From NCBI GenBank assembly GCA_028701035.1, contig JAQVRO010000003.1:1-34521 (forward strand): a stretch of DNA of 34,521 nucleotides, read 5' to 3'. Origin of the DNA: Minisyncoccota bacterium. Lineage in GTDB: Bacteria > Patescibacteriota > Minisyncoccia > Minisyncoccales > CSSED10-335. The notes under the pieces were generated by a model. The model was not told the DNA's origin. It made no database searches and saw only the letters and a list, made by a program, of their open reading frames with translations. Positions 1 through 4,205 of this stretch are shown here, piece after piece (position 1 is the stretch's first letter; each line of letters starts with the position of its first letter). A program made the position numbers and the translations under genes.

Positions 1-8
1 AAAAAACT

Positions 9-332
9 ATGACATTTTTTATACTTGGTTTTGTTGGAGGTATTATTAGAGGATCTATGGGGATTATTAAACACAAGCAGTCGTATAGCAATGTTAAAAT
101 TGATCAAAAGTATTTAATAACAACACTAGCAATATCTGGTGCTATCGGTTTTGCTTCGGCTTGGGCATTGAAAGACTTAGGAGTTATGTTTGCGGGAGCA
201 GAAACATTGCCGTTGAGCTTAGCTCTAATTGTTGGTTATGCCGGAGGTGATTTCTTAGAAAACATATTTAAGATAATTACTAAAAACGAAGACATATTCA
301 AAATAGGAAAAATTACAGAAAAGACAGAATAA
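9..332 (+). CDS. Small predicted membrane protein, unknown function
   Basis: 107-aa ORF with hydrophobic segments; its stop overlaps a downstream ATG (TAAATG). Confidence 0.6.
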   Translation: MTFFILGFVGGIIRGSMGIIKHKQSYSNVKIDQKYLITTLAISGAIGFASAWALKDLGVMFAGAETLPLSLALIVGYAGGDFLENIFKIITKNEDIFKIGKITEKTE

Positions 333-372
333 ATGAGAATTCTCTACACCATTACTAAATCAGAAGCTGGGG
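332..372 (+). repeat. 41-bp direct repeat, copy 1 (duplicate of glycosyltransferase start)
   Basis: aatgagaattctctacaccattactaaatcagaagctgggg is identical to 716-756. Confidence 0.95.
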
Positions 373-405
373 CCACGCCCGCCTCGCCTAAGCGAATATA
401 GTTTT

Positions 406-663
406 ATGTATTACACTTATGTTTTGTTGAGCAAAAAAGATGAAAATTTTTATATCGGTTATACTTTTGATTTAAAAAGAAGGCTGAGTGAACATAATTC
501 AGGGGCAGTATCTTCTACCAAAAACAGAGGAAAGCTTATATTGATATACTGTGAAATTTGTTTAAACAAAAACGATGCTATCAAAAGAGAGAAGTATTTT
601 AAGACAGGTTTTGGTAGAAGATTTTTAAATAATAGATTAGAAAATTATTTAACCAAGAATTAA
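406..663 (+). CDS. GIY-YIG domain nuclease, single-domain (UPF0213/YhbQ-like)
   Basis: MYYTYVLLSKKDENFYIGYTFDLKRRLSEHNSG contains the YVL/YIG core and RRLSEHN helix of GIY-YIG nucleases. Confidence 0.85.
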   Translation: MYYTYVLLSKKDENFYIGYTFDLKRRLSEHNSGAVSSTKNRGKLILIYCEICLNKNDAIKREKYFKTGFGRRFLNNRLENYLTKN

Positions 664-715
664 GCTCGCGATGGCGGGCCCCCAAGAATTCATATCGATT
701 AACCATAACAACTTC

Positions 716-756
716 AATGAGAATTCTCTACACCATTACTAAATCAGAAGCTGGGG
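716..756 (+). repeat. 41-bp direct repeat, copy 2 (intact glycosyltransferase start)
   Basis: Identical to 332-372; offset 384 bp. Confidence 0.95.
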
Positions 757-1775
757 GAGCTCAAACCCATGTTTTTCAATTGTCTAAGTATATGAAAGAA
801 AAAGGCCATAGCGTAGCCATAATGTCTTTTCCCGGAGGAGAATTAGAGAAGCTTGCAAAAGAGAACAATATTACTTTTCATCCAAATATATACTTTAGAA
901 ACACTTTTAATCCAATTCCGGGATTAAAAGCAATGAAAAGAATAATTGAGGTGGCTAGCATATTTAGCCCAGATATTATAGCCTGTCATAGCTCTATTGC
1001 TGGTTTTTGGACCAGATTAGCTATTAAAAACAGAATACCAACCGTATTTACTGCTCATGGCTGGGGATTTACCGATGGAGTACCCAAAACAAAGAAACTA
1101 CTTGTTTCTTTGGCAGAAAGAGTTGCTCAAAAATATTGTAATAGAATAATATGTGTTTCTGAATATGATAGGCAGTTAGCTATTAAAAACAAAGTGGCCA
1201 AAGAAGATAAGCTAATTACAATACATAACGGAGTAGAGTTGTTTCAAAGAGAAAAGACAGATAACAATATTAATATAGTATTTGTTGGCAGATTAAGCAA
1301 TCAAAAAGACCCAGAATTATTAATACAAGCTTTCGGTGAATTAAAAGAGTCAAACACTAATCTTTTTATAATCGGAGGCGGAGAAAAAGAAGAGAAGATT
1401 AAAAGAATGGGCGGTGATAATATTCAGATTACAGGATCCCTTACAAGAGCAGAAACACTAAACAAGCTAAAGAATGCTGACATATTTGTTTTAACATCTA
1501 ACTACGAGGGATTCCCCATTACTATTTTAGAAGCAATGAGTTTTGGCTTGCCAGTTATTGCCTCGGATGTTGGAGGAGTATCAGAAATAGTAGATGATAG
1601 TGTTGGCTATTTAATTAAAAGAGGAGACAAAGAAGAATTAAAAATAGCTCTAAAAGAATTGATAACCAACAAAAGCTTAAGAGAAGAAAAAGGAGCTAGG
1701 GCTAGAAAAAGAATACAAGAGAGTTTTACCATTGAAAAAATGCTTGAAAAAACAGAGCAGGTGTATTTACAATAA
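717..1775 (+). CDS. Glycosyltransferase, GT4-like
   Basis: N-terminal SEAGGAQTHVFQL and C-terminal SNYEGFPITILEAMSFGLPVIASDVGGVSEIV typical of GT4 enzymes. Confidence 0.9.
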   Translation: MRILYTITKSEAGGAQTHVFQLSKYMKEKGHSVAIMSFPGGELEKLAKENNITFHPNIYFRNTFNPIPGLKAMKRIIEVASIFSPDIIACHSSIAGFWTRLAIKNRIPTVFTAHGWGFTDGVPKTKKLLVSLAERVAQKYCNRIICVSEYDRQLAIKNKVAKEDKLITIHNGVELFQREKTDNNINIVFVGRLSNQKDPELLIQAFGELKESNTNLFIIGGGEKEEKIKRMGGDNIQITGSLTRAETLNKLKNADIFVLTSNYEGFPITILEAMSFGLPVIASDVGGVSEIVDDSVGYLIKRGDKEELKIALKELITNKSLREEKGARARKRIQESFTIEKMLEKTEQVYLQ

Positions 1776-3137: not shown

Positions 3138-4205
3138 ATGTTTGATTTAAACAAGAAACAACAAGAGATATTAAATATAGTTGTTAAAGATGAATCTTTG
3201 CAATCATCAGAAGTTTTTGAAAAGATGAGCGATGTTTCTCTTGTAACAGTCAAAAGAGCTTTATCAGATATGGCTCGTCTTGGGCTTTTGAATAAAAGTG
3301 GTTCGGGGAGATCTGTTAAGTATAGTATTGGCATCATCGGAAGAATATTCCTAGACATTGATGCTCGCAAATATTGTTCTATTGATCCTGACGAAAGGTT
3401 TGGTCTTGCTAGATATAATTTTGAATTCTTGTCATCTATACCAAGCGAATTATTTTCAAAAGATGAAATTAATCTTTTGAACAATTCAACAGCAAATTGG
3501 CAAGGCAAGATAAAGAATATAACACCAGTTATCCAAGAAAAAGAACTAAAAAGATTTGTAATTGAGCTTGCTTGGAAATCTTCTAAAATCGAAGGAAATA
3601 CTTATTCTCTTGTAGATACCGAGCAATTAATATTAAATAACAAAGAAGCAAAAAACAGAACTAAAGAAGAAACCCAGATGATTCTAAACCATAGAGACGC
3701 CTTTCATACTATTTTTAATAATCCAGATAAATATAAGAAGATTAAAAAAGGAGAAATAGAAGAAATACATTTTTTGTTAACTAAAGACTTAAAAATCAAA
3801 AAAGGTTTTAGGCAGAGCCCAGTTGGAATTACTGGATCAATATTTAGGCCATTGGATAATAGTTATCAGATATCAGAAGCTGTTGATTTATTAGAAAAGG
3901 CAATTACACAAGCGAAAAGCCCATTCTCTAAGGCACTTATTGCTTTATTGGGAATATCTTATATCCAACCATTTGAAGATGGAAATAAGAGAACAGCTCG
4001 CTTTACTGCTAATGCGATATTAATCTCTAATAATCTCCCCCCAATATCTTATCGTAGTGTTGACGAAAGAGACTATAGAGATGCCATATTAACCTTATAT
4101 GAAATAAACTCTATTATTCCGATTAAAAAGATATTTATTAATCAGTACGATTTTACAGCAAACAATTATACGATAGCAATTAATGAAAAATCAAGAAATA
4201 TTTAA
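3138..4205 (+). CDS. Fic-domain protein with N-terminal winged helix; degenerate Fic motif
   Basis: IQPFEDGNKRTAR corresponds to HPFxxGNxR; SSKIEGN resembles the Fic inhibitory (S/T)xxxE(G/N) motif; N-terminal HTH-like region. Confidence 0.85.
   Translation: MFDLNKKQQEILNIVVKDESLQSSEVFEKMSDVSLVTVKRALSDMARLGLLNKSGSGRSVKYSIGIIGRIFLDIDARKYCSIDPDERFGLARYNFEFLSSIPSELFSKDEINLLNNSTANWQGKIKNITPVIQEKELKRFVIELAWKSSKIEGNTYSLVDTEQLILNNKEAKNRTKEETQMILNHRDAFHTIFNNPDKYKKIKKGEIEEIHFLLTKDLKIKKGFRQSPVGITGSIFRPLDNSYQISEAVDLLEKAITQAKSPFSKALIALLGISYIQPFEDGNKRTARFTANAILISNNLPPISYRSVDERDYRDAILTLYEINSIIPIKKIFINQYDFTANNYTIAINEKSRNI

Follow-up and report, generated by a model that had tools for sequence, protein, structure and literature searches.

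Near its left end, the window (the whole 34,521-nt stretch of DNA analysed) carries the truncated start of a glycosyltransferase gene, a small GIY-YIG nuclease gene and a complete copy of the same glycosyltransferase gene. The features of the locus are listed below; numbers preceded by L denote related loci elsewhere.

3..332, + strand: upstream small membrane-protein-like ORF, the stop codon of which (TAA, 330-332) abuts ATG 333
332..372, + strand: repeat copy 1, a 5' fragment of the glycosyltransferase gene and probably its original start; 41/41 nt identical to 716-756
333..401, + strand: truncated fragment ORF, MRILYTITKSEAGATPASPKRI*, with a TAG stop (399-401) located 4 nt before the nuclease start
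373..756, + strand: 384-bp segment presumed, from the repeat, to be absent from an uninterrupted gene; it comprises the element, a 36-nt leader and the second 41-bp copy
377..395, + strand: left element end, GCCCGCCTCGCCTAAGCGA, the left half of an imperfect palindrome, common to L005, L098 and L100
406..663, + strand: GIY-YIG nuclease ORF (PF01541), 85 aa, without an extra DNA-binding domain
664..679, + strand: right element end, GCTCGCGATGGCGGGC, the right half of the imperfect palindrome, common to L005, L098 and L100 and present in a single copy in the genome
680..715, + strand: 36-nt leader of the complete gene, which differs from the sequence upstream of copy 1
716..756, + strand: repeat copy 2, the start of the complete glycosyltransferase gene; 41/41 nt identical to copy 1
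717..1775, + strand: complete GT4 glycosyltransferase, 352 aa; orthologues lack the element and start with a similar, MKILYLITKSEAGGAQTH-like sequence

The direct repeat is exact (332-372 and 716-756, 384 nt from start to start), and its length rules out a chance origin. A duplication of the glycosyltransferase start with this spacing had been noted in a preliminary description made from the sequence alone, which assigned to it 13 codons and two upstream bases; the repeat in fact comprises a single upstream base (A332 or A716) followed by 13 codons, and extends to the first G of codon 14. The lone GIY-YIG ORF reported between the copies matches PF01541 with an E value of 2e-16, and the decoy reading frame described at 333-401 is present, ending 4 nt ahead of the nuclease ATG (406). 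No Pfam match was obtained for the upstream ORF at 3-332. Since there is no gap between the stop codon of this ORF and ATG 333, an arrangement like that of a tight operon, copy 1 probably occupies the native start, and the leader preceding copy 2 would therefore be new.

The genome holding the window measures 580 kb and is 91% complete. At its end, contig C22 of this genome repeats positions 1-127 of the window exactly, and the upstream gene on that contig encodes another glycosyltransferase. An overlap of 127 bp suggests an assembly graph built with k = 127. As the 41-bp repeat is far shorter than this, an assembly error is unlikely, and an artefact was rejected both on this ground and because the same layout recurs in unrelated assemblies. 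On the other side of the locus, the glycosyltransferase gene is directly followed by an AbiEi antitoxin-like gene (NF047376, under the curated cut-off) paired with an AbiEii toxin-like gene (PF08843; 1828-3094 for the pair), and then by a Fic-domain gene (3138-4205). Similar sequence follows the glycosyltransferase in a genome of the same genus. A perfect palindromic site, TATCCTGTACA..TGTACAGGATA, is found just before the AbiEi-like gene (1789-1814) and is kept in two related genomes (L004, 1459-1484; L036, 1866-1891); this site may serve as operator of the toxin-antitoxin pair.

The GC-rich ends GCCCGCCTCGCC (377-388) and GCGATGGCGGGC (668-679) can pair with one bulge. The energy of this duplex (-26.5) was compared with that of 500 one-arm shuffles (-12.2 +/- 3.2), the best of which reached -25.5. 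Pairing thus exceeds all shuffles and, as the same ends bracket related ORFs elsewhere, the proposal that a GC-rich imperfect inverted motif marks the ends of the insert holds. The nearest relatives of the ORF are those of L098, L005 and L100 (71%, 68% and 67% protein identity, respectively), and some tRNA-linked loci show similar identity. All three loci feature the same two ends as the window, CCCGCCTCGCCTgAGCGa .. GCTCGCGATGGCGGG, in unrelated surroundings (left end, CCCGCCTCGCCTGAGCGA; right end, GGCTCGCGATGGCGGG), and their core spans 289-319 bp (301 bp in the window). The same loci adjoin the window in a maximum-likelihood protein tree, the 85 columns of which resolve few forks. L104 contains a solo palindrome, cccgcccgcttcgcctgagcggcgagcgatggcgggcggg, which has no ORF and the halves of which are nearly those of the window element. 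The shared ends and this solo palindrome delimit the element, and suggest that ORF-less derivatives exist. Further GIY-YIG ORFs with CCCGCC/GGCGGG termini, which the preliminary description proposed to seek in the genome, were not found in its 580 kb, and neither were any other GIY-YIG relative, a second right end or a CCCGCC..GGCGGG palindrome.

In most relatives, inverted ends bracket the ORF. To the right of the element in L025, an AbrB-like gene carries an ORF-less solo palindrome, CCCTATTAAATTGTGGTACCCCACATTATTTAACAGGG, near a complete GIY-YIG element with similar ends. In L058, the left end of the element is directly adjoined by another element end (CTTCTAACGGGATGA), as if two elements had inserted successively at the same regenerated start codon.

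The encoded protein belongs to the GIY-YIG nuclease superfamily, as indicated by the PF01541 match, the conserved catalytic Tyr, Arg and Glu residues and the fold of the model. Residues Y16, G18, R26, H30 and E62 are invariant in 12 aligned sequences, and the AlphaFold model of the 85-aa protein has a pLDDT of 91. Among solved structures, UPF0213 proteins are nearest by sequence (E 3e-10) and SLX1 matches weakly; by fold, the Foldseek neighbours of the model are UPF0213, SLX1 and the catalytic domain of I-TevI. Because the protein has 85 residues and no separate DNA-binding domain, the hypothesis that it may choose its target by DNA structure, as SLX1 does, is attractive. The similarity to UPF0213 proteins would also be expected if a housekeeping nuclease gene of this type happened to lie beside a tandem duplication, but the ends, positions and strand shared by the relatives contradict such a neighbourhood by chance. 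This explanation is extremely improbable, and a coincidental housekeeping gene was rejected on the comparative data.

Relatives of the ORF were collected at 168 distinct loci. Most of the named ones are found in Patescibacteria, which suggests that the organism of the window also belongs to this group; others occur in Bacteroidales, Aminicenantes and other non-Patescibacteria genome bins, which hints at a wider spread if the contigs are correctly binned. Among the secF starts read in one family, the element is found only at that of G208 (L190), so that the remaining starts represent empty sites; in L201, a GIY-YIG match lies away from the secF start. L051 and L066, which belong to one genome, carry elements that are 97% identical, while their 100-bp flanks are 48% and 44% identical, the level of unrelated sequences. 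The empty secF sites and the near-identical copies at unrelated loci support the mobility of the family. The unit recognised in the window is real and is not isolated, being one member of a large family (168 loci), and the minimal nuclease-driven mobile unit proposed earlier is supported, with the nuclease as the putative driver. At the window locus itself, neither an empty site nor a donor allele was found. In a relative of the same genus, the contig ends inside the glycosyltransferase, at codon 243. Orthologues at the order level carry no element, are approximately 45-52% identical and have unrelated upstream sequences. No empty allele of the L005 target was found either, the gene being absent from all relatives in the family of L005.

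The succession of a 5' gene fragment, the element and the complete gene is also observed at protein genes in L005, L007, L102 and L141. Fragment and complete gene are identical at 52 of 59 nt in L005 (88%) and at 57 of 60 nt in L007 (95%). In L141, they share 28 identical nt of an epimerase-like gene, and approximately 10 nt of the original gene remain past the right end, followed by the new complete gene. The two copies in L102 encode a shared peptide, MK(I/V)L(V/I)TGGAGF, and have clearly diverged in DNA sequence. DNA scores range from 82 to 105 for the window, L005 and L007, against 38 for the best unrelated pair; the protein scores of L102 and L141 (57) barely exceed that of the best unrelated pair (55), and inspection was also needed to recognise these two. 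The protein-gene form was seen in only 5 of the 99 non-tRNA loci. Together with dozens of tRNA loci in which a fragment, the element and the complete target follow each other, these cases agree with the early proposal of an inserted unit that leaves its target complete. In five of the six cases in which the element lies within a gene, 1-23 nt separate the stop of the fragment ORF from the nuclease ATG, and in the sixth the fragment ORF overlaps this ATG; such spacing fits a translational coupling of the nuclease to the captured start, as the preliminary description had envisaged.

The element interrupts an AbrB-like gene in L100, and no complete copy is restored. Similarly, an epimerase-like gene is interrupted in L147, where no complete copy is present and the nuclease is decayed, with an internal stop. 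Both resemble unrescued disruptions, and may be taken to favour a sequence of events in which a gene is first interrupted and a complete gene is later restored downstream by recombination or DNA uptake, leaving a dead 5' fragment. The stretch of the original gene retained past the right end in L141 favours the same sequence of events. On the other hand, dozens of independent loci share the layout, and in nearly all of them the restored gene immediately adjoins the right end. This suggests one concerted event. Disruption followed by rescue is improbable, but has to be taken seriously as a rival.

The association with tRNA genes is extensive. A tRNA gene lies within 200 nt downstream in 69 of the 168 loci, and the downstream tRNA genes are all on the nuclease strand (77, with 0 on the opposite strand). 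The tRNA starts within 60 nt of the nuclease end in 59 loci, 35 of which feature a clear 5' fragment of the same tRNA upstream of the nuclease. Twelve fragments are identical to the complete tRNA, nine show one or two mismatches and 14 show at least three. A palindrome of the same kind as the element ends lies inside the tRNA fragment in 22 of the 35 loci. The acceptor stem of tRNA-Thr(tgt) differs between the fragment and the complete copy in L023 and L044, suggesting an outside origin of the latter.

A strand bias is also seen for downstream genes, which lie on the nuclease strand in 74 loci and on the opposite one in 11. When target ORFs of at least 60 codons are considered, the right end falls within -4 to +10 of the start of a long ORF in 40 of 77 inverted-repeat loci, against 10.7 expected. 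The ATG of the target itself reads in frame into the nuclease in 16 of the 77, and in several start-codon loci the regenerated ATG shares bases with the TGA stop of the nuclease. These loci belong to other subfamilies, which feature ends such as ATCCCGTTAGAG..CTCTAACGGGAT, the right end overlapping the last nuclease codons. A search of 384 genomes for the exact pattern CCCGTTAGAG..CTCTAACGGG at a set spacing yielded 40 places, distributed over 35 genomes, and none for the reversed control. In a contig from a viral collection (L178, 3001-3246), a relative is bracketed by the ends ACCCCGTAGGATTT..AAATCCAACGGGGT. Elements may also ride in phages, or this contig may be host DNA. L178 is the single relative found in viral contigs, and phage records yielded no DNA match.

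Insertions on the strand of the target, with ends able to pair, might be expected of an element acting at the RNA level, either intron-like or processed by an RNase, in which the ends pair in RNA and the fragment is joined to the remainder. GIY-YIG-coding inserts are indeed known from rRNA genes of Patescibacteria, according to the excerpted text of PMC11270868. Yet an Rfam search of positions 1-2400 revealed no intron or other RNA match, and excision at constant boundaries restores the reading frame inconsistently (L008 versus L016), so that precise splicing was rejected. As the complete target is located downstream, splicing would not be needed. An RNA-level element is very improbable.

The duplicated segment is approximately 0-4 bp long at start codons and 28 to over 40 bp long elsewhere; insertion points vary, and no target duplication of constant length was found among the relatives. 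These data bear on transposition of the insertion sequence type, in which the GIY-YIG protein would act as a transposase on the paired ends and the 41-bp repeat would be a long target duplication made in place, by a staggered break or by template switching, with no donor. Several traits are in line with this: most relatives have inverted ends around the ORF, ORF-less palindromes with the same ends (e.g., L104) resemble small non-autonomous elements, the target genes are unrelated, and the duplicated copies are identical in the window and in L141. However, the range of duplication lengths is difficult to reconcile with it, as is the divergence of the copies in L102, L005, L023 and L044. Moreover, the element nearly always points in the same direction as its target, a bias that transposons with symmetric ends need not show, and the 36-nt leader separates the right end from copy 2. 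We consider in-place transposition unlikely, though a serious rival to the reading favoured below.

The reading that we favour, to which we assign a probability of roughly 60%, is that of a minimal mobile element with a GIY-YIG nuclease, which captures the start signals of its target, leaves a complete gene behind it and moves by donor-templated break repair. Its two components differ in strength. That the window segment is a mobile, gene-sparing unit is highly probable, while the exact route of movement, copying-in by break repair from a donor, is about as likely as not. According to this reading, the element would correspond to positions 373-679 and consist of one small GIY-YIG gene flanked by the halves of an imperfect palindrome. 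Members of the family would settle in the 5' part of genes, on the strand of the target, so that the promoter and start codon of the target are placed in front of the nuclease and could express it, while a complete target copy is located directly behind. The nuclease, possibly guided by a hairpin or palindrome structure, would break an intact target allele near its start. Repair from a donor already holding the fragment, the element and the complete gene would copy in the element together with the donor 5' end, and the target would keep working. The shared ends at unrelated sites, the strand bias, the start-codon and tRNA positions, the fragments with complete targets and, in the family, the empty sites and repeated copies are seen in the sequences; we infer that the nuclease is expressed, is coupled in translation, cleaves DNA and drives this movement by the repair route. 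Copying from a donor is favoured by the diverged 5' ends of L102 and L005 and of the tRNA-Thr genes in L023 and L044. The 41-bp copies of the window do not differ from each other and are neutral in this respect, with no sign of a foreign donor. The favoured reading has several weak points. The complete right-hand copy retains the presumed cut site, which would expose the host to cleavage by the nuclease, should this be active and sequence-specific. It is also not obvious how a single 85-aa domain could recognise a long site. The varying insertion points, the unrestored genes of L100 and L147, the small number of loci of the protein-gene form and the failure to find an empty site or donor for the window locus speak against it as well.

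More than 100 related units in ultra-small bacteria sit alike before tRNA or protein genes. If the favoured reading is true, many annotated small GIY-YIG genes of Patescibacteria form one mobile-element family, the members of which share the trick of capturing the start signals of a needed gene while keeping that gene whole. The family could then explain the GIY-YIG inserts in CPR rRNA genes that fall outside the intron classes, as well as truncated tRNA copies and the GC-rich palindromes around them, and could be one source of assembly breaks. It would also provide very small nucleases with a testable target rule.

Among known systems, insertion sequences with their MITEs and REP/RAYT systems combine inverted-repeat ends around one gene with ORF-less palindromic derivatives, and use DDE or HUH/Y1 transposases. 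The window element likewise has terminal inverted repeats around a gene. In contrast, its sole ORF is a GIY-YIG nuclease: no DDE, HUH or serine/tyrosine transposase is present, and no other ORF of at least 80 aa lies in the element. We tentatively entertain, as somewhat doubtful, a separate class of minimal bacterial transposable elements of approximately 280-300 bp, in which a bare GIY-YIG nuclease would recognise palindromic ends and be aimed at start codons or tRNA 5' regions, usually sparing the gene; the small palindromes of Patescibacteria would be non-autonomous derivatives. A group I or group II intron or an intein was ruled out, as there is no Rfam match and the 85-aa ORF holds a GIY-YIG domain alone. 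Seg proteins of phages carry further DNA-binding domains, and a homing endonuclease of this type was rejected because the 85-aa protein has one domain and no separate DNA-binding region. In the literature covered, which was partial and did not include preprints, there is no account of palindromic ends, 5' target fragments or start-codon positions, nor of the family.

The excerpted text on T4/T6 SegB (PMC13096335) describes a free-standing, intron-less phage GIY-YIG homing endonuclease close to tRNA genes. SegB shares with the window family the association with tRNAs and, as proposed for this family, movement or amplification through break repair, but it is a phage gene, for which the excerpt describes neither terminal inverted repeats nor a captured 5' target fragment. 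The insertion sequences of CPR rRNA genes are closer in host, as they occur in the same bacteria, encode the same nuclease fold and are neither group I nor group II introns, as far as the excerpt of PMC11270868 extends. In that excerpt, they are reported only in rRNA genes, and end structure, palindromes and duplicated target ends are not mentioned. They may represent the same elements.

The closest known analogue is provided by the mobile endonuclease ORFs (mORFs) of fungal mitochondria with a duplicated gene end, which have been described in Allomyces atp6 and in Glomus atp6, atp9, cox2 and nad3 (PMC3630166). As in the window, these feature a free endonuclease ORF (GIY-YIG in Glomus atp9) and a second copy of one gene end, the gene being complete and the displaced end surviving as a remnant (PMC3630166). 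Fungal mORFs bring along a duplicate of the 3' (C-terminal) end, which is fused to the gene, and their ORF comes after it, whereas in the window the duplicated part is the 5' end and the nuclease ORF lies ahead of the complete glycosyltransferase gene. In contrast to the mORFs, the window element is bacterial, spans approximately 300 bp and has palindromic ends, and its family is very often located at tRNA genes.
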